DNA from: Bradyrhizobium sp. CIAT3101
GTDB lineage: Bacteria; Pseudomonadota; Alphaproteobacteria; Rhizobiales; Xanthobacteraceae
Direction: 5' to 3'
NCBI RefSeq assembly: GCF_029714945.1
Contig: NZ_CP121634.1
Span: 310,001-374,000, forward strand
DNA length: 64,000 nt
The translations under genes were made by a program, and so were the position numbers. Below are positions 4,122-14,576 of the stretch, one piece after another. The number at the start of each line of letters is the position of its first letter. Position 1 is the first letter of the stretch. The notes below the pieces were generated by a model that was not told the DNA's origin, made no database searches, and was given only the letters and a program-made list of their open reading frames with translations.

Positions 4122-4730
4122 TCACACCGTCATGAGCCGTTCGCGCCGCAGGAACGCAAGCAGCGGCAGCAGCGGTAGGCCGAGAATGGTGAAATGGTCG
4201 CCCTCGATCCGCTCGAACAGATGGATGCCAAGGCCTTCGAGCTGATAGGCTCCGACGCTGGTGGTGACGGCATCACCGGCGGCGTCGAGATAGGCCGAAA
4301 GCTCGGCCTCGGTCATAGCTCGCATGGTCATGCGGGCAATCGACACATCCTCGAAAACAATCTTGCCGTCATGCGCCACTGTGACGGCGGAATTCAGCTC
4401 GTGGCTGTGACCGGCGAGATCGCGCAACTGCGCCAGCGCCTGTGTCCGACCGGTCGGCTTGTTGAAGAGGCGCTCGCCGAGCGCGAGCGTCTGGTCGGCG
4501 CCGATCACATAAGTTCCGGGACGATTGGCCGAGACGGCCTTGGCTTTCTCGCCCGCCAGCAGCAGGGCGATCTCGCGCGGGCTTGAAAGTCTCGAAGCAG
4601 CCTGGATACCGCGCTCGTCGATGTCGGCGGTCGCAGTCTCGAATTCGAGCCCGGCGTTCGCCAGCAGCATTTTGCGTGCGCTGCTCTGCGAGGCCAGGAT
4701 CAACGGAGTTTTGCCGCGCCACAGAGCCAT
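4122..4730 (-). CDS. Maf-like nucleotide pyrophosphatase
   Basis: 202 aa. Maf/YceF/YhdE-type house-cleaning nucleoside triphosphate pyrophosphatase. The family signature [14 protein letters not shown] is at the N-terminus, with [11 protein letters not shown] in the middle and the C-terminal [28 protein letters not shown] block; the central D and the S/R residues expected at the active site are visible. ATG at 4730 is preferred to a TTG two codons upstream. It sits ten bases after the stop of the DUF299 gene and leads directly into coaE, so the four genes are probably one transcript. Confidence 0.93.
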
Positions 4731-4739
4731 TTTCAAAAG

Positions 4740-5585
4740 CTATTCAGAAGGCCGGTTACGCTGGCGATCGCTGTAGAGCTTCATGATCGCCGCCGCGGTT
4801 TCCTCGATCGAGCGCCGCGTCACGTCCAGCAGCGGCCAGTCGTGCTTGGCGCTCAGCTTGCGCGCGAACGCGACCTCCTCGGTGACCGACTGCCTGTCGG
4901 TATAGGTGTCGCTGCCGGATCCGGATTCGGCGCCCATGGAGAGCAGGCGGTTCTGACGGATCTGGATCAGACGTTCCGGTGTCGCATGCAGGCTGACCAC
5001 CAGCGGCCGGGTCAGCGTCTCCAATTGCGCCGGGACAGGAATGCCCGGGACCAGCGGCACGTTCGCAGTGCGGATGCCGCGATTGGCAAGATAGATCGAC
5101 GTCGGCGTCTTCGAGGTGCGGGACACGCCGACCAGGACGACGTCGGCTTCCTCGAGCCCTTCGACGTGCTGGCCGTCGTCATGGATCATCGTGTAGTTCA
5201 ATGCGTCGATGCGCTTGAAATATTCGGCGTTGAGCACGTGCTGTGCGCCGACGCGACCCGTCGTCGCAGCGCCGAGATAGGCTTCGAACAGCTGCATGAC
5301 CGGGCCGATGATCGACAGGCTCGGAACATTGATCGCCTTGCACTTGTCCTCGAGCCGCGAGACCAGATCCTTCTCCAGCAGCGTGAACAGCACGATGCCC
5401 GGCGCTTCCTCGATCTCGTCGAGCACGCGGTCGAGCTGCTTCTGGCTGCGCACCAGCGGATAGACATGTTCGACCGGCGTGACGTTCGCGTATTGCGCGG
5501 CGACGGCGCGCGCGACCGTGATCAGGGTCTCGCCGGTGGAGTCGGAGACGAGGTGCAGATGGAAATAATTGTTCGAGGTCGGCAC
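4740..5585 (-). CDS. DUF299 family kinase/pyrophosphorylase (dikinase regulatory protein)
   Basis: 281 aa. This bifunctional family switches pyruvate,phosphate dikinase or PEP synthase on and off by threonine phosphorylation and phosphorolysis. SDSTGET is near residue 15 and the P-loop-like [18 protein letters not shown] is near residues 150-170. It starts with GTG at 5585 preceded by AAAGAGA. It is the homologue of Rickettsia RP001, the gene that flanks the replication origin in the Caulobacter/Rickettsia conserved cluster, which is why the gap upstream is of interest. Which dikinase it acts on cannot be told from this window. Confidence 0.93.
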
Positions 5586-5921
5586 AAAATCTCTTTGTAT
5601 GTCGGCGGTGTGGTTTGTGGATTTCTGTGGACCTTAACCCCTCGGAAAGGGTTGCGCGACACCAGGGGCGGGACAAGTGCCAATTTTCTTCACACCACGG
5701 CCCGTCAGAATAACTCCGGCGGTCGGTCGCGCGAGAAGCGGGATTGCGCGGACAAGCCCCTTGATAGGCTGCGGATGGAAATGCGCAAGCCTTTGAGTCC
5801 GGACCACTTATCTGGTCGGGCGGGAACTGTCGCGGACATGTTGATGGATGTGAACAAGCGTCTGCGAAGTGGCGGACGGCATTGTGTGAGTCCAATCCAC
5901 GGTCACTCAGACTCAAACCTT

Positions 5922-5938
5922 AAGAATCTAAGATTCTT
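5922..5938. repeat. Perfect 7-base inverted repeat AAGAATC-TAA-GATTCTT
   Basis: Short dyad in the AT-rich part of the DUF299-hemJ gap, about 106 bases upstream of hemJ. It could be an operator for hemJ or part of the origin unwinding region. It is followed by TTTATTGG and has no terminator-like U-run. Confidence 0.5.
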
Positions 5939-5983
5939 TATTGGAGAAGGGCGCTCCAGCGAGATATGTGTGCAGGTAAGATC

Positions 5984-5998
5984 TTAACGAGTTCTTAC
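5984..5998. promoter_or_regulatory. CtrA-like box TTAA-N7-TTAC
   Basis: TTAA CGAGTTC TTAC matches the CtrA consensus TTAA-N7-TTAA with one mismatch, which is the common TTAAC-type variation. CtrA sites occur in the Caulobacter origin and in cell-cycle promoters. Here it lies between the putative origin and hemJ, about 47 bases before the hemJ start. A single match of this information content can arise by chance. Confidence 0.35.
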
Positions 5999-6044
5999 TA
6001 TCCCCAGATCGCCGAACGGCTGGGCGCACAGATGGACGCCGGAC

Positions 6045-6479
6045 ATGTTTGAAGACGTCTATCTCTGGATCAAGGCGCTGCACGTGATCGCCGTCATCTC
6101 CTGGATGGCCGGCATGCTCTATCTGCCCCGGCTGTTCGTCTATCATTGCGAGGCCGAGATCGGCTCGAAACAGTCCGAAACCTTCAAGGTGATGGAACGT
6201 CGCCTGCTCAAGGCGATCATCAACCCCGCCATGATCGTCACCTGGCTTGCCGGGCTTTACCTTGCCTGGGCCGGCCATTGGTTCACCTTCGGCTGGCTGC
6301 ACGTAAAACTGGCACTGGTGCTGGCGATGTCTGCGGTCCACGGCTTTTTTTCCCGCTGGCTCAAGGACTTTGCTGCCGACCGGCGCCCGCACAGCCAGAA
6401 ATTCTTCCGAATTATCAATGAGGTGCCGACCGTCCTGATGATCATCATCGTCTTCATGGTGATCGTGAAGCCGTTCTAG
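6045..6479 (+). CDS. hemJ: Protoporphyrinogen oxidase HemJ
   Basis: 144 aa inner-membrane protein of the HemJ/UPF0093 family, which oxidises protoporphyrinogen IX to protoporphyrin IX in haem synthesis. It has four hydrophobic helices. Conserved features are YLWIKALHVIAVISWMAGM at the N-terminus, LPRLFVYH around residue 30, and RWLKDFAADRRPHSQKFFRIINEVPT near 105-130, with the conserved His/Arg/Lys residues. In many relatives hemE or hemH lies nearby; here hemJ stands alone directly at the right edge of the candidate origin and just before rho. Confidence 0.93.
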   Translation: MFEDVYLWIKALHVIAVISWMAGMLYLPRLFVYHCEAEIGSKQSETFKVMERRLLKAIINPAMIVTWLAGLYLAWAGHWFTFGWLHVKLALVLAMSAVHGFFSRWLKDFAADRRPHSQKFFRIINEVPTVLMIIIVFMVIVKPF

Positions 6480-6727
6480 GCAATCATCGGGAACGATCGC
6501 CCAGCGCTTCGGCTTGCGGAGTGGGAAGCGATTTTCTATATTATCGATATCCCACCCAACGCAGGCGGATGTGGTTGTGTCCGAGCTTTTTGAAGGCCGG
6601 ACACCGCATCAGGTTTGAAGCCCCCACCGGCACTTAACCTTGCCAGACCTGCGGACCTTACCTTCTCACGTCCGCATTTCAGAGCCTCCTCGCACCCCTC
6701 CCAAGGTTACCCCACAGGACCACCCCA

Positions 6728-7993
<1,266 letters not shown>

Positions 7994-8017
7994 GCCAGGG
8001 TGCAGCAGAAGATCACA

Positions 8018-8040
8018 GGGCGCCTTCGGGCGCCCTTTTT
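8018..8040 (+). terminator. Intrinsic terminator of rho
   Basis: GGGCGCC-TTCG-GGCGCCC: a seven-pair perfect stem (8018-8024 with 8029-8035) closed by a UUCG tetraloop and followed by five Ts. It lies 24 bases after the rho stop. Confidence 0.92.
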
Positions 8041-8307
8041 GTTGTGCGGCTTTGCTGCGGGAAAAGTGCAGCATGGCGAGCGGCCGGACCTCAATCCCGT
8101 ACTTCTCTGAAGCTGTTGATATATCGGGATAATGATTGACTTCTGACCGGCCGAAATTGTCTCGGACAGCGGTTTCTGCACCAGAATCTCAAGATTATAT
8201 TGCAGAGCAATATGAAATTTGTTGCAGGCCAGGCCGCAGCAAAATCGTCGTTGCCGTGGTCCCGGACGAGCCGTTTGCCTTTTCCTCGCCAGCCGGACAA
8301 ATAGGCC
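8041..8307. other. Gap between rho terminator and mnmE
   Basis: 267 bases, part of the 314-base rho-mnmE gap. The middle is AT-rich (around 8110-8220) and presumably carries the mnmE promoter. No open frame with credible coding character, no inverted repeat and no parS site is visible. Confidence 0.5.
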
Positions 8308-9612
8308 ATGCACCCGCGTGACCAGACCATCTTTGCGCTGTCGTCCGGCCGTCCGCCGAGCGCGATCGCGATGGTACGAGTCTCGGGCCCACACGCCGGC
8401 CTGGTGTTGACGGCACTGACCGGCAAGCTGCCGACGCCGCGTCAGGCCAGCCGCCGGCTGCTCCGGGACCATTCCGGCCAACCGATCGACGATGCGGTCG
8501 TGCTCTGGTTTCCGGGGCCGGGGACCGCGACCGGTGAGGACGTCGCCGAATTTCACGTCCATGGCGGACGCGCCGTGCTGGCGGCGCTCCTCGCCGTTAT
8601 TTCGTTAATTCCGAATACGCGTGCGGCGGAGCCCGGCGAGTTCACGCGGCGCGCATTCGAGAACGGCAAGCTCGATCTCACCGAGGCCGAGGGTCTCGAC
8701 GATCTCATCCACGCCGATACCGATCGCCAGCGCCGCCAGGCGCTGCGGCAGTTGCAAGGCCTGCTCGGTAATCGCGCGCGTGATTGGCGCGAGCGGATCA
8801 TCGAGGCCTCGGCGCTGATCGAAGCGGGAATCGATTTTTCCGATGAAGGCGATGTGCCTGCGGAATTGCGTGCGCCGGCGGTGAAAGCGATCAAGGCGCT
8901 TCACGACGAAATCACAAAAGTCCTTGCGGCACAGGGACATTCCGAACGCCTCCGCGACGGTCTGGTGGTTGCGATCGCAGGCGAGCCGAATGTCGGCAAG
9001 TCGACGCTGATGAATCAACTCGCCCGCCGCGACGTCGCGATCGTTTCGCCGCACGCCGGCACCACGCGCGACGTGATCGAGGTGCAGCTCGATCTCGACG
9101 GCTATCCGGTCACGGTGATCGACACGGCCGGCATCCGCGAGACCAATGATCCTGTCGAGCAGGAAGGTGTGCGCCGGGCGAGGGCGCGGGCCGAAGACGC
9201 CGACCTCGTGCTGTGGCTGGTGGAGGGCGAGCGCGCCGTCGATCCGTCCGGCGGCCAGGTCTGGATCGTCCGCAACAAGATCGATCTTGGAGGAGCACGG
9301 TCACCCGGCGAGTTCGGGATCTCGGCGAGTCGGGGCGACGGAATTCCGGAGCTGGTCGAGGCCCTCGTGAAATTCGCGGCGGACTTCTTCGGGACCACCG
9401 AGGGCGCATTGGTGACCCGGGCCCGGCAGCGAGACTTGTTGAGCCGCGCCTCGGACAGCTTGCGCCGGAGTCTCGACCTTGTAGAAGAGGGCGAAGAGCT
9501 CGCGGCCGAAGAGCTGCGTGCCGCGGCTTATGCCCTGGGCCGGCTGCTCGGCCGGGTCGACGTCGAGGACGTCCTCGGGGCCATTTTCCAGAAATTCTGC
9601 ATCGGGAAGTAG
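8308..9612 (+). CDS. mnmE: tRNA uridine-5-carboxymethylaminomethyl modification GTPase MnmE
   Basis: 434 aa. With MnmG it adds cmnm5 to the wobble uridine of certain tRNAs. N-terminal folate-binding domain ([46 protein letters not shown]), helical domain interrupted by a G domain with GEPNVGKS near 225-232, [17 protein letters not shown] and NKID near 322, and the invariant C-terminal FCIGK whose Cys is catalytic. It shares the region with its partner mnmG, separated by the parS cluster. Confidence 0.97.
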
Positions 9613-9641
9613 CGCTAGTTCTTCAATGTAGAACTAGCGCT
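9611..9641. terminator. 12-pair perfect hairpin overlapping the mnmE stop codon
   Basis: AGCGCTAGTTCT (9611-9622) pairs perfectly with AGAACTAGCGCT (9630-9641) around the loop TCAATGT. The left arm contains the last two bases of the mnmE stop codon. Only TTGTT follows, so termination would be weak or Rho-assisted; RNA 3'-end protection is also possible. Confidence 0.6.
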
Positions 9642-9656
9642 TGTTCCATTGCTTGC

Positions 9657-9670
9657 GTTTCACGTGAAAC
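9657..9670. promoter_or_regulatory. parS site 1
   Basis: Perfect 14-base palindrome GTTTCACGTGAAAC, the ParB-binding core. It is 44 bases after the mnmE stop codon. Confidence 0.92.
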
Positions 9671-9691
9671 AGGGTTTGGGGGTTCCGGGCC

Positions 9692-9705
9692 GTTTCACGT
9701 GAAAC
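9692..9705. promoter_or_regulatory. parS site 2
   Basis: Second exact GTTTCACGTGAAAC, 35 bases after site 1. Confidence 0.92.
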
Positions 9706-9712
9706 AGGTATC

Positions 9713-9814
9713 GTAGGGTGGGCAAAGCGGAGCGTGCCCACGATCTCGGTCCGAATATGCCGGCGGCTCGTGGGCACGGCGCGCGAAGGGTGCACCCGCC
9801 TTTGCCCACCCTAC
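9713..9814. repeat. Palindromic dispersed repeat (GTAGGGTGGGCAAAG type) between parS 2 and 3
   Basis: Terminal arms GTAGGGTGGGCAAAG (9713-9727) and CTTTGCCCACCCTAC (9800-9814) are exact reverse complements. A second nested dyad CGTGCCCACGA/TCGTGGGCACG lies inside. It is related to the element between parA and parB (GTAGGATGGGTAGAGCG). Such REP-like elements are scattered in Bradyrhizobium genomes. Confidence 0.85.
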
Positions 9815-9833
9815 AGGGTCTGTTCCGCGCATT

Positions 9834-9847
9834 GTTTCACGTGAAAC
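9834..9847. promoter_or_regulatory. parS site 3 (full 16-base consensus)
   Basis: GTTTCACGTGAAAC flanked by T and A, giving TGTTTCACGTGAAACA, the only one of the five sites that matches the extended 16-mer. Confidence 0.93.
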
Positions 9848-9870
9848 AGCAGCCGTTTGGACGCACTTCC

Positions 9871-9896
9871 TACTGTGCATGGGGTTGTTGTCGCGG
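9871..9896. repeat. Copy 1 of a short non-palindromic motif shared with 51358-51383
   Basis: TACTGTGCATGGGGTTGTT then a variable base and TCGCGG. The same 19 bases followed by one changed base and TCGCGG occur in the gap before the sorbosone-dehydrogenase-like gene. It lies between parS 3 and parS 4. Confidence 0.6.
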
Positions 9897-9924
9897 CACT
9901 GCTCTCAGTCGCTCCAGCACTTCC

Positions 9925-9938
9925 GTTTCACGTGAAAC
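9925..9938. promoter_or_regulatory. parS site 4
   Basis: Exact GTTTCACGTGAAAC, 58 bases upstream of the mnmG start. Confidence 0.92.
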
Positions 9939-9995
9939 ACCCGCCTCCCCAGTTTCCACTTCCGGCTTTCCTGCCGCTGAGCTAGAAGTCCGGCC

Positions 9996-11876
9996 ATGCG
10001 ACCAGAGCGAGAGAGTTTCGACGTCATCGTCATTGGCGGCGGCCACGCCGGCTGCGAGGCCGCGGCTGCGTCTGCCCGGATGGGCGCGACGACCGCTCTG
10101 GTGACACACCGTTTCTCGACCATCGGCGCGATGTCCTGCAATCCCGCGATCGGCGGTCTCGGCAAAGGTCATCTGGTCCGCGAGGTTGATGCTCTCGATG
10201 GTCTGATGGGCCGCGTCGGTGATGCCGGCGGCATCCAGTTCCGCGTTCTCAATCGCCGCAAGGGCCCGGCTGTCCGTGGTCCGCGCGCCCAGGCGGACCG
10301 GAAGCTCTATGCCGCCGCCATGCAGGCCGCGATCCGGGCGACCGAGGGTCTTTCCGTCATCGAAGGCGAGGCCGACGAACTGATCGTGGTCGATGGCCGG
10401 GTCACGGGATTGCGCCTGGCGGACGGTCGGGCGCTCCGGGCAGGGGCTGTCGTCATCACCACCGGCACCTTTCTCCGCGGTCTGATCCATCTCGGCGAGA
10501 AGAATTGGCCTGCCGGCCGCGTCGGCGAGGCCCCGGCGATGGGTCTTTCGGCCTCCTTCGAGCGTGCCGGCTTCACCCTCGGACGGCTGAAGACCGGGAC
10601 TCCGCCGCGTCTGGACGGCTCCACGATCGACTGGTCCGCGGTCGAGATGCAGCCCGGAGACGAGCCGCCGGAGCCGTTCTCGGTCATGACCAAAGGGATC
10701 ACGACCCCACAGATCCAGTGCGGGATCACCCGGACCACGACCGCCACCCATGAGGTGATCCGGGCCAACGTTCATCGCTCTCCGATGTACTCCGGTCAGA
10801 TCAAGAGCTCCGGTCCGCGCTATTGTCCCTCGATCGAGGACAAGATCGTCCGCTTCGGCGACCGGGACGGCCACCAGATCTTCCTGGAGCCGGAAGGTCT
10901 CGACGACACCACGGTCTATCCCAACGGCATCTCGACCTCTCTGCCGGAGGAGGTCCAGCTCGCGATCCTCGCCAGCATCCCTGGCCTGGAGCGGGTCAAG
11001 ATGGTCCGCCCGGGCTATGCCATCGAATACGACCACATCGATCCCCGCGAACTCGATCCAACCCTGCAGACCAAGCGTCTGCGCGGTCTTTTCCTGGCCG
11101 GGCAGATCAATGGCACGACGGGATACGAAGAGGCCGCCGGGCAGGGCATCGTGGCCGGCCTCAACGCGGCGCTCTCCGCCAGCGGAGCTGCACTGACAGT
11201 GTTCGACCGTGCGGACGGCTATCTCGGCGTGATGATCGACGACCTCGTGATCCGCGGGATCAGCGAGCCCTATCGGATGTTCACCTCACGGGCCGAATAC
11301 CGGCTGACCTTGCGGGCCGACAATGCCGATCAGCGCCTGACCGAGAAGGGGATCGCGCTGGGCTGTGTCGGGAGTGCCCGGACCCAGCATCATCGCGCCA
11401 AAATGGACGCCCTGAACGCCGCGCGGGCGCTGTCGAAGTCACTGACCATCACCCCGAACGAGGCGATCAAGCACGGGCTGTCCCTGAACCGGGATGGCCA
11501 GCGCCGCTCGGCGTTCGAACTGATGGCCTATCCGGATATCGGCTGGAGCCAGGTCCGAGCGATCTGGCCGGAGCTGTCCGCCATCGATCCCGTCATCGCC
11601 ACCCACCTCGAGATCGACGCCAAGTACGACGTCTATCTCGAGCGCCAGAGCGCTGACGTCGAAGCCTTCCGGCGCGACGAGGGGATGGTGCTGTCGGAGG
11701 TCGACTACAGCCTCGTCCCCGGTCTCTCCAATGAGGTTCGGGCCAAGCTGGAGAAGGCGCGGCCGTTCACCGTCGGCCAGGCCGGTCGGATCGACGGCAT
11801 GACGCCGGCGGCCCTCGGCATCCTCGCGGCCTATCTCCGCCGCGAGGCACGCAAGACTTCCAAAGCAATCGCATAG
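9996..11876 (+). CDS. mnmG: tRNA uridine-5-carboxymethylaminomethyl modification enzyme MnmG (GidA)
   Basis: 626 aa FAD-dependent partner of MnmE. The N-terminal dinucleotide-binding motif [19 protein letters not shown] is at residues 9-27. It is followed by [35 protein letters not shown] (residues 199-209) and [25 protein letters not shown] near 370-390. The C-terminal MnmE-binding helical region includes the conserved [14 protein letters not shown]. It ends at TAG 11874-11876, three bases before parS 5. Order mnmE-mnmG-rsmG-parA-parB is the common bacterial origin-side arrangement. Confidence 0.98.
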
Positions 11877-11878
11877 GC

Positions 11879-11892
11879 GTTTCACGTGAAAC
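11879..11892. promoter_or_regulatory. parS site 5, containing the rsmG start codon
   Basis: Exact GTTTCACGTGAAAC in the two-codon gap between mnmG and rsmG. Its internal GTG (11886-11888) is the only usable start codon for rsmG. Confidence 0.9.
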
Positions 11893-12653
11893 AGCGCGGC
11901 GGGGACAAACCGCTCTCCCGACGACCCGGAACAGGTGAGGGCGCCGGTCGTCGAACCGAGCCGGCACCGACCAGGCCTAAGATCGACAAGGCCAACGCCA
12001 ACGATCAGGCGCTCGATTCCATCATCGCCGCGGACAAGCGCACGGCCCTGAAGCTCGCGCCCGTTTCACATGAACTAGAGGCGCGGCTCGATCGTTACAT
12101 CGCGCTGCTGCGGGAGTGGCAGGCCAAGACCAATCTGGTCGCGCCCTCGACCTTGCCGCAGCTCTGGACCCGTCACATCGCCGACTCGCTTCAGCTCGTC
12201 GACCTCGCGCCATCGGCAAAACGCTGGGCCGACCTTGGCAGCGGCGGCGGATTTCCAGGCGTCGTGCTGGCGTGCGCCATGGCGGGGTCGCCGGGCGCGA
12301 GCGTCCACCTCGTCGAGCGAATCGCCAAGAAGGCCGCTTTTTTGCGCGAAGCAATCCGCGTCACCACATCTCCGGGAGTCGTACATCTCGCTGAGATCGG
12401 GGATAATGTGGATAGAATCACCGGCCCCGTCGATTGCGTCACCGCCCGCGCGCTGGCTCCGCTACATCAACTCATCGGCTTTGCGGAGCCGCTGATGCGC
12501 CAGGGCGCAAAAGCGCTGTTTCCGAAGGGTCAAGATGTAGAGGCTGAATTGACCGAAGCCGCTAAATATTGGAATATTCAGCCGCAACTCCACCGAAGCC
12601 GGACCGGTGACGGTTGGATCGTCGAGCTGACTTCAGTTGAACGGCGCGGGTGA
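11886..12653 (+). CDS. rsmG: 16S rRNA (guanine-527-N7)-methyltransferase RsmG
   Basis: 255 aa; S-adenosylmethionine-dependent methylation of 16S rRNA G527. The core carries ADLGSGGGFPGVVLA (SAM-binding), LVERIAKKAAFLREAIR, and TARALAPLHQLIGFAEPL. The first 55 or so residues (Lys/Arg/Pro-rich) are not part of the usual fold. The frame has an in-frame stop (that of mnmG) just upstream, and GTG at 11886 is the only ATG/GTG/TTG before the conserved core, so translation appears to begin inside parS 5. No good ribosome binding site precedes it, hinting at coupling to mnmG termination. Confidence 0.93.
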   Translation: MKQRGGDKPLSRRPGTGEGAGRRTEPAPTRPKIDKANANDQALDSIIAADKRTALKLAPVSHELEARLDRYIALLREWQAKTNLVAPSTLPQLWTRHIADSLQLVDLAPSAKRWADLGSGGGFPGVVLACAMAGSPGASVHLVERIAKKAAFLREAIRVTTSPGVVHLAEIGDNVDRITGPVDCVTARALAPLHQLIGFAEPLMRQGAKALFPKGQDVEAELTEAAKYWNIQPQLHRSRTGDGWIVELTSVERRG

Positions 12654-12684
12654 GGCACTCAGGGGTTGAGTTGGGGAATTTTCG

Positions 12685-13539
12685 ATGACCGTGATTGACG
12701 AGCCGCAGCAAGAACAGACCGATCAAGTGCCCCATGGTCACCCACGCATCCTGGCGTTGGCGAATCAGAAGGGCGGCGTGGGAAAAACAACCACGGCGAT
12801 CAACCTTGGCACGGCACTCGCCGCGATTGGCGAGCGCGTCCTGATCGTCGACCTCGATCCGCAGGGCAACGCCTCGACCGGCCTCGGCATCGATCGCCGC
12901 AACCGCTCTTGCTCGACCTATGACGTGCTGATCGGCGAAGCCCCGCTGCGCGAAGCATTGGTCTCGACCGCGGTGCCGCGGCTGCACATCGCGCCTTCCA
13001 CCATGGATCTCTCCGGCCTCGAGCTCGAGCTCGGCACCACGCCCGGACGCGCTTTCAAGCTGCGCGATGCGATCGGTGCGCTCAACAACAACGTCTCGCC
13101 GGACGCCGATTACACCTACGTGCTGATCGACTGCCCGCCGTCGCTGAACCTGCTCACGGTCAATGCGATGGCCGCGTCGGACGCGATCCTGGTGCCGCTG
13201 CAGTGCGAGTTCTTCGCACTCGAAGGTCTGTCGCAATTGCTGCAGACGGTGGAGCAGGTGCGCTCGACGCTGAACCCGAACCTGTCGATCCACGGCATCG
13301 TGCTGACCATGTTCGACTCGCGCAACAACCTCTCGAACCAGGTCGTGGCCGACGTCCGCCAGTTCATGGGCGAGAAGGTCTACAAGACCATGATCCCGCG
13401 CAACGTGCGCATCTCGGAAGCGCCGTCCTACGGCAAGCCGGTGCTGGTCTACGATCTCAAATGCGTCGGCAGCGAAGCTTACTTGCGACTCGCCACCGAA
13501 GTCATCCAGCGCGAGCGCGAGCTGCGCGTCACGCATTGA
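12685..13539 (+). CDS. parA: Chromosome-partitioning ATPase ParA
   Basis: 284 aa. Deviant Walker A ATPase that drives segregation of ParB-parS complexes. About 20 non-conserved residues precede LALANQKGGVGKTTTAINLG with the deviant Walker A (K near 33). Walker A' LIVDLDPQGNASTGLG and Walker B YVLIDCPPSLNLLT follow, then the conserved PLQCEFFALEGLSQLL. Preceded directly by rsmG and followed by parB after a palindromic insertion. Confidence 0.97.
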   Translation: MTVIDEPQQEQTDQVPHGHPRILALANQKGGVGKTTTAINLGTALAAIGERVLIVDLDPQGNASTGLGIDRRNRSCSTYDVLIGEAPLREALVSTAVPRLHIAPSTMDLSGLELELGTTPGRAFKLRDAIGALNNNVSPDADYTYVLIDCPPSLNLLTVNAMAASDAILVPLQCEFFALEGLSQLLQTVEQVRSTLNPNLSIHGIVLTMFDSRNNLSNQVVADVRQFMGEKVYKTMIPRNVRISEAPSYGKPVLVYDLKCVGSEAYLRLATEVIQRERELRVTH

Positions 13540-13633: not shown

Positions 13634-13688
13634 AAGTTTCGAAATTTCAGTTCTGGAGTGCTGCAGCGTGAATCCAAGGGAGCTGGCG

Positions 13689-14576
13689 ATGGCCGACGAA
13701 GCGCGTTCGCGACTGGGCCGGGGTCTTGCAAGTCTGATCGGTGATGTCGGCGGCGAGGCTCAGCACGTCGACCGTCCGCGCGCGCAGCGCAAGGTGCCGA
13801 TCGAATTCATCAAGGCCAATCCGCGCAATCCGCGTCGGACCTTTTCGGACACCGAGCTCAAGGAGCTCTCCGAATCCATCAAGCAACACGGCGTGATCCA
13901 GCCGATCGTGGTGCGCCCGGTGAAGGGCACGCAGGATCGCTTCGAGATCATCGCCGGCGAACGGCGCTGGCGCGCCTCGCAGATGGCCGGCCTGCATGAA
14001 GTGCCGATCGTGCCGGTCGACATCAGCGACAGCGATGCGCTGGAATTCGCGATCGTCGAGAACGTGCAGCGCGAAGACCTCAACCCGATGGAAGAGGCGC
14101 TCGGCTACCACGCGCTCGCCAACGAATTCAAGCGCAGCCAGGACGACATCGCCAAGGTCGTCGGCAAGAGCCGCAGCCACATCGCCAACATGATGCGGCT
14201 GACCAAGCTGCCGGCCGAGGTGCAGGCCTTGATCACCAGCGGCGATCTGACCGCCGGTCACGCCCGCGCATTGATCGGTGTGCCCGATCCACTCGCCGCT
14301 GCGAAGCGTATCGTCGCGGAGGGCCTCAACGTCCGCCAGGCCGAAGCGCTCGCGCATGAAGAGGGCGTGCCGGAGCGAAAGCCGCAGAAGGCCCGTGCGA
14401 CTGCCGGGAAGGAAAAGGATCCGGATACGATCGATCTCGAGAAGCGCGTCAGCGATGCGCTCGGCCTCAAGGTCACCGTCAATCACCGCGATCCCGGCGG
14501 CTCTGTCCAGATCAACTACCGCAACCTCGATCAGCTCGACGAGGTGATGAAGCGGCTCGCGAAGGGCGCGCTGTAG
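13689..14576 (+). CDS. parB: Chromosome-partitioning protein ParB
   Basis: 295 aa. CTP-dependent DNA clamp loaded at parS. Starts ADEARSRLGRGLASLIGD, the short ParA-stimulating N-terminal tail. Then VPIEFIKANPRNPRRTF, the CTP-binding GERRWRASQMAGL, the EFAIVENVQREDLNPMEEA block, a helix-turn-helix (DDIAKVVGKSRSHIANMMRL), and a C-terminal dimerisation domain. I chose ATG at 13689, with AAGGGA upstream, because a longer frame starting at 13590 would be translated from the palindromic repeat. Confidence 0.96.
   Translation: MADEARSRLGRGLASLIGDVGGEAQHVDRPRAQRKVPIEFIKANPRNPRRTFSDTELKELSESIKQHGVIQPIVVRPVKGTQDRFEIIAGERRWRASQMAGLHEVPIVPVDISDSDALEFAIVENVQREDLNPMEEALGYHALANEFKRSQDDIAKVVGKSRSHIANMMRLTKLPAEVQALITSGDLTAGHARALIGVPDPLAAAKRIVAEGLNVRQAEALAHEEGVPERKPQKARATAGKEKDPDTIDLEKRVSDALGLKVTVNHRDPGGSVQINYRNLDQLDEVMKRLAKGAL

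Follow-up and report, generated by a model that had tools for sequence, protein, structure and literature searches.

The chromosomal replication origins of Caulobacter and Rickettsia lie between hemE and a COG1806 gene, and either hemE or COG1806 has been described as a sufficient neighbour for locating an origin (PMC1914354). For the Bradyrhizobiaceae, Ori-Finder instead describes an oriC beside gidA (mnmG), defined by the motif TGTTTCACG (PMC2275245), and this rule was taken over in the genome paper of Oligotropha carboxidovorans, where four tgtttcacg motifs are given (PMC3091675).

Here we consider both positions in a Bradyrhizobium sp. chromosome, using a window of 64,000 nucleotides taken from one 9,368,452-bp contig, where it occupies bases 310,001-374,000. 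A sequence-only reading of this window had placed a candidate chromosomal origin in the gap between ppsR and hemJ, a proposal that is supported by the GC-skew minimum, by gene-order orthology and by conserved DnaA-box cores. We put the probability that this gap is the chromosomal replication origin, and the positional orthologue of Caulobacter Cori, at about 0.88.

The ppsR-hemJ gap and its neighbours

The candidate oriC is the whole 459-bp intergenic gap at 5586-6044 of the window (genome 315,586-316,044), which lies in the region of the skew minimum, has a Caulobacter/Rickettsia-type position and carries a motif cluster that is unique in the 1.6 Mb scanned. To its left is ppsR (4740-5585, minus strand), a DUF299/COG1806 gene matching NCBIfam NF003742, and to its right is hemJ (6045-6479, plus strand; TIGR00701). 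The earlier identification of the DUF299 gene as the homologue of RP001, which flanks the Rickettsia origin, agrees with the NF003742 match and with the COG1806 flank (RP001/CC0001) given in PMC1914354. The proposed flip in transcription was likewise found, since ppsR and hemJ diverge from 5586-6044: ppsR, maf, coaE and dnaQ (the last assigned from its open reading frame alone) extend leftward, and hemJ, rho, mnmE, mnmG, rsmG, parA and parB rightward.

The partitioning functions named in the sequence-only reading, five parS sites and parAB, are also in place. The parS sites span 9656-11893, 3.6-5.8 kb from the gap, and are followed by parA (12685-13539, plus strand; best match NF041546, below its cut-off) and parB (13686-14576, plus strand; TIGR00180, above its cut-off). 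Four of the sites are in the mnmE-mnmG gap (9656-9939, plus strand), the type of locus that Ori-Finder describes as oriC (PMC2275245), and the fifth is at the mnmG-rsmG junction (11878-11893, plus strand). Shuffled sequences are expected to yield 0 such sites, and these are the genome's only five within one mismatch. In Caulobacter, parS is found a few kb from the origin. Across 23 genomes (this one and 22 chosen from those with larger contigs), parS is 3.7-14.7 kb from the gap in every case, whereas dnaA is 122 kb to 2.55 Mb away. Eight of 40 family stretches have no exact parS core, one of the eight being only 5.8 kb long.

Gene-order orthology

The argument from flanking genes proved stronger than first put, because hemE is across the gap from ppsR in 20/20 class-level loci fetched (selected mainly for contig size; of 190 genomes searched, 118 had a ppsR match). 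The gap described here is intergenic and beside COG1806, with hemJ occupying the other side in place of hemE. Among 40 family loci, fetched from the 147 of 149 genomes with a ppsR match, the gene next to the gap is hemE in 23, hemJ in 16 and neither in 1. A further set of 80 named loci gave 77 usable gaps, with hemJ next in 76; the one with hemE, from a Bradyrhizobium sp. (L201), is the sole named locus to retain that gene beside the gap. Thus, hemE is missing beside the gap in nearly all loci of the clade comprising Bradyrhizobium, Afipia, Tardiphaga, Rhodopseudomonas and Nitrobacter, and in the present genome it is far from the gap, at 7.43 Mb (L008, genome 7,431,869-7,432,873). Given that hemE is there in all of the class-level and 23 of the 40 family loci, its absence points to a later loss in this clade. 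Such a loss removes a marker gene for origin prediction, and may explain the earlier published placement.

GC skew

GC skew was sampled in sixty 20-kb samples, amounting to 1.2 of the 9.37 Mb, plus a contiguous stretch at 110-574 kb. The skew is positive in 25 of the 29 samples between 312 kb and 4.68 Mb and negative in 28 of the 31 others, with a maximum near 4.7 Mb. A cumulative minimum had been expected at the gap; in the contiguous stretch it falls at 299,210, on a flat floor of about 297 to about 322 kb within which the gap (315,586-316,044) is included. That the minimum falls 16 kb to the left of the gap, on a flat floor, counts against the proposal. The position of the gap is therefore compatible with the skew switch at a resolution of about 20 kb, and skew cannot discriminate between the gap and the parS cluster, only 4 kb apart. 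In a relative of the same genus (G015; 20 samples), the gap and dnaA are at 5.318 and 5.516 Mb, respectively, and the switch to positive skew falls between 5.096 and 5.488 Mb.

The motif GGGNAGGG follows the same two arms genome-wide, with 58 forward and 10 reverse copies in the samples from 312 kb to 4.68 Mb versus 3 and 63 in the rest. In the contiguous 464 kb it has no local polarity (10 forward and 12 reverse left of 316 kb, 21 and 18 to the right), which rules it out as a fine locator of the origin.

DnaA-box-like motifs

Two tandem DnaA-like nonamers ten bases apart and another on the opposite strand had been noted in the gap, and all three were located. TGTGGATTT starts at 5616 and TGTGGACCT at 5626, two and three mismatches, respectively, from the E. 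coli box TTATCCACA; as minus-strand boxes they read AAATCCACA (5616-5624) and AGGTCCACA (5626-5634). On the plus strand, TTCTTCACA is at 5686-5694, and a further nonamer, TGTGAACAA (TTGTTCACA on the minus strand), is at 5849-5857, where it starts a widely conserved core. Perfect or one-mismatch E. coli boxes can be ruled out as an origin signal, as the gap holds none within one mismatch of TTATCCACA, its nonamers being 2-3 mismatches off. The window as a whole has 5 such boxes where chance predicts 3.7, which is no excess, and a perfect TTATCCACA occurs in 0 of 116 homologous gaps (39 family and 77 named; 114 distinct).

The box cluster of the gap is made up of weak variants only, and these are the variants that recur in its homologues. 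The commonest box-like nonamers of the 116 gaps are AAATCCACA (55 counts), TTCTTCACA (54) and TTGTTCACA (50), all three of which are in the gap described here. The core TGTGGA/TCCACA is present in 115/116 homologous gaps, TGTGAA/TTCACA in 102/116 and GANTC in 116/116, at densities of 4.14, 4.25 and 9.40 per kb versus 0.23, 0.14 and 1.81 in a sample of the genome itself. In an unbiased count of 6-mers over 45 gaps, TGTGGA/TCCACA ranks first (98 observed versus 9.3 in shuffles; in 44 of the 45), followed by CCTGTG, GTGGAT, TGTGAA, CTGTGG and GGATAA. The z-scores of these motifs overstate independence, because homologous gaps are related sequences and not independent observations. The nonamers had been expected to be conserved in close relatives, and this expectation held for the cores and less so for the full sequences. 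For instance, TGTGGA at 5626-5631, the core of AGGTCCACA, is invariant in 30/30 genus loci, whereas TGTGGATTT is within the first 80 bases, near the ppsR end, in 15/30, and its complement AAATCCACA is somewhere in the gap in 23/30.

The gap contains 4 box cores, 4 nonamers within 2 mismatches and 5 GANTC sites. In a scan of 1.604 Mb of the genome (78,924 windows of 459 bp), these counts are reached by fractions of 0.00014, 0.0013 and 0.0038 of windows, respectively, the thresholds being the gap's own values, chosen after seeing the gap. All three counts together are reached by 4 overlapping windows, every one of them at the gap. Any single motif is weak evidence; the motif cluster is not.

AT-rich core, GANTC sites and CtrA-like box

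The most AT-rich stretch of the gap, presumed to be the unwinding element (DUE), is at 5903-5950. The 40-mers starting at 5903 and at 5908-5911 are 67.5-70% AT, with 70% at 5903-5942; the GC content of the genome is about 63%. GANTC (CcrM-type) sites form a cluster of four at 5888-5936, starting at 5888, 5910, 5924 and 5932. By DNA similarity, a core block at about 5839-5938 is matched in 34 of 36 genus genomes (this one included), 15 of which match solely in or near the block, and in 0 of 24 genomes from other families. In the genus alignment, which comprises the 30 of these 34 genomes that became loci, AGACTCAAACC (5909-5919), AGA (5923-5925) and TCTA (5927-5930) are invariant in 30/30, so that the two GANTC sites at 5910 and 5924 are fixed beside and inside the part of the gap that is richest in AT; conservation of the 5888 site is a little lower, at 28-30 of 30 loci per base. 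The GACTCAAACC block fades outside the genus, being present in 56/116 wider gaps (56/92 of hemJ type and 0/24 of hemE type).

The AT-rich dyad of the sequence-only reading corresponds to AAGAATCT-A-AGATTCTT at 5922-5938. The full 17 bp are identical in only 5/30 genus loci (the inner 15 bp in 16/30), which excludes the full dyad as a conserved signature. An inverted GAGTC-N17-GACTC pair is similarly not general, and was rejected as a family signature, since the 17-bp spacer is found in 31/116 gaps and any spacer of 8-30 bp in 38/116.

Methylation of the GANTC sites is plausible, because the genome encodes one CcrM-like RAMA-domain protein (L280, genome 7,287,186-7,287,476) and, in a control set of 14, the domain was matched only in Caulobacter. 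The RAMA-domain protein is a 377-aa open frame and likely CcrM. Caulobacter lacking CcrM is described as still controlling initiation (PMC3973325), and for this reason a methylation gate is counted less likely.

The CtrA-like box that had been noted in the gap is TTAACGAGTTCTTAC (5984-5998, plus strand), one mismatch from TTAA-N7-TTAA. It touches CTATCCCCA (5998-6006, plus strand), which includes TCCCCA, the core of the W-box of Caulobacter (PMC4285127 gives the consensus). As five one-mismatch CtrA matches occur in the window where 0.98 are expected, a single match is weak evidence by itself. The pattern is present in 16/30 genus loci and missing in L028-L038, which rules out CtrA control as a defining feature. 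Perfect sites are found in 7/116 homologous gaps, and instead of the several TTAA-N7-TTAA sites of Caulobacter Cori the present gap has one one-mismatch site. CtrA or methylation control of the gap may be predicted from these motifs, as may DnaA binding and a melting site from the boxes and the AT-rich stretch.

Sequence conservation alone cannot serve as proof of an origin, because the hemJ-rho gap is more conserved: in 75 loci, 37.9% of its columns are at >=90% conservation versus 14.8% for the ppsR-hemJ gap. Of the three intergenic regions compared, the hemJ-rho gap (6480-6727) ranks first in conservation, and it is possibly a rho leader element. TGTGGA/TCCACA occurs there in 64/110 relatives, and not in this genome.

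Alternative interpretations

If TGTTTCACG were a family-specific DnaA box, as in the published prediction of Ori-Finder for the Bradyrhizobiaceae (PMC2275245), the origin would be the mnmE-mnmG (gidA) gap at 9613-9995. This gap shares the skew floor with the ppsR-hemJ gap, and skew cannot tell positions 4 kb apart. The motif is moreover linked to this place, since in 25/40 family stretches no exact parS core is more than 700 bp from the start of mnmG or rsmG; in the other 15 the parS motif is absent (8), partly near (3) or away from mnmG/rsmG (4). Against this, TGTTTCACG is identical to a parS half-site, the sequence crystallised with Caulobacter ParB as parS, TGTTTCACGTGAAACA (PMC8367383), is the same 16 bp found in the window, and parAB is encoded next to these sites. 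The mnmE-mnmG gap itself contains no DnaA core, no box with 2 or fewer mismatches and no GANTC site, and over 90 homologous mnmE-mnmG gaps the cores reach 0.58 per kb, below the 4.14 per kb of the 116 ppsR gaps. We thus consider an origin in the mnmE-mnmG gap very unlikely. The published TGTTTCACG motif, and with it the Bradyrhizobiaceae oriC description, probably marks the centromere, judging from the sequence identity with parS. Among the matches listed in literature searches there was no title correcting the TGTTTCACG rule, which is no proof of absence.

In many bacteria oriC is beside dnaA, which here is at 25-1404 of the contig, about 314 kb from the gap, and the origin could accordingly be the intergenic region between rpsT and dnaA, where the deposited contig begins. 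This long region (L281:1159-2452, genome ~9,367,159-9,368,452) holds several DnaA-box-like sites and GANTC. Its best 459 bp, tested later and outside the 1.604-Mb scan, contain 6 GANTC sites and 5 boxes with no more than 2 mismatches, 1 box having no more than 1 mismatch, and so reach the counts of the ppsR-hemJ gap for boxes within 2 mismatches and for GANTC, but not for cores (2 versus 4). Such boxes and GANTC sites are expected for control of the dnaA promoter, which is probably what they represent, and they could mislead a purely motif-based origin search. Skew is net negative in the samples taken at 9.20 Mb, at 1-20 kb and at 156-176 kb, and over the stretch 110-299 kb, which on this coverage places dnaA about 300 kb inside one arm and not at the switch. 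In G015 the skew is already positive between the gap and dnaA, and across the 23 genomes parS stays within 15 kb of the gap at all of the dnaA distances given above. An origin at dnaA is, on this evidence, a highly improbable alternative. In two family relatives, G118 and G132 (the latter treated as circular), the ppsR gap and the parS cluster are separated from dnaA by about 2.55 and 1.25 Mb, respectively, indicating that some members of the family have dnaA and the origin region unlinked. Least probable of all is a gap that is only a divergent ppsR/hemJ promoter, with conserved blocks that are transcription-factor, CtrA or leader-RNA sites. The two genes do diverge across it, the CtrA-like box is 46 bp before hemJ, and Caulobacter Cori is described as also making an RNA, CcnA (PMC8959179). 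However, the box cores persist while the right-hand gene alternates between hemJ and hemE (though GACTCAAACC is in 0/24 hemE-type gaps), and a promoter alone leaves the skew and the parS linkage unexplained. No Rfam match was found in 4700-12700, and no sigma-70-like promoter or terminator in 5500-6100.

A model for initiation at the gap

With the ppsR-hemJ gap as origin, DnaA produced from a gene about 314 kb away would bind a dispersed set of weak boxes with the cores TGTGGA and TTCACA, oligomerise in the direction of the AT-rich core at about 5888-5945, in which the GANTC sites are clustered, and melt this core for helicase loading. Two forks would depart from the gap, each co-directional with the flanking genes, and the parS cluster, which is 3.6-5.8 kb rightward of the gap, would be copied soon after and captured by ParB/ParA.

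A broader reading can be put forward only tentatively, and as a whole is rather unlikely: that in Bradyrhizobium, Afipia, Rhodopseudomonas, Nitrobacter and Tardiphaga the oriC of the TGTTTCACG rule would be parS centromeres, that the true origin would be a hemE-less Cori about 4 kb off with an invariant GANTC pair in its unwinding core (aligned in Bradyrhizobium), and that CcrM methylation could gate melting and once-per-cycle firing. The part that concerns location, with the TGTTTCACG rule marking a centromere, is likely; the CcrM methylation gate on melting is speculative.

The gap provides coordinates for the probable origin of the nitrogen-fixing genus Bradyrhizobium. Bradyrhizobium bacteroids can become polyploid, and origin control is thus a live question in this genus. 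The analysis also indicates that the DnaA-box rule published for the whole family describes a parS half-site, and origins placed by it would shift by about 4 kb in the present genome, which is small for genome-scale studies but decisive for origin cloning, DnaA work and minichromosomes.

Comparison with known origins

The Ori-Finder oriC of the Bradyrhizobiaceae, beside gidA, and the ppsR-hemJ gap belong to a common origin-proximal cluster about 4 kb apart, and differ in that the motif defining the former is parS, at a locus without DnaA cores. The chromosomal origin of Sinorhizobium meliloti is, like the present one, from the Rhizobiales. It is described without CtrA-binding motifs in PMC4433202, and 14/30 Bradyrhizobium loci are likewise without them by the pattern used here. 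The Rickettsia prowazekii origin (hemE-RP001, 384 bp) follows the same flanking-gene rule (PMC1914354), and is far more AT-rich, with table figures of 71.0 and 82.6 versus 36.8 and 44.9 for the genome and gap described here.

In the case of Caulobacter crescentus Cori, differences are found in hemE, which in the present genome has moved to 7.43 Mb, in the five CtrA boxes of Cori versus one CtrA-like box here, and in the TGATCCACA G-boxes of Cori, none of which are among the listed boxes of the gap. The likenesses begin with the COG1806 left flank common to both, hemE being the right-hand neighbour in most of the loci examined from the family and the class. Cori is given as 404 bp in the table of PMC1914354, versus 459 bp here, and the figures of 32.8 and 43.6 for C. 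crescentus in that paper, read as the AT content of genome and origin, resemble those of the present genome and gap. Both have weak DnaA boxes, an AT-rich element and GANTC sites (for Cori, PMC1914354, PMC4468827 and PMC3973325). The ppsR-hemJ gap is very probably a hemE-less member of the known alphaproteobacterial COG1806-type origin.
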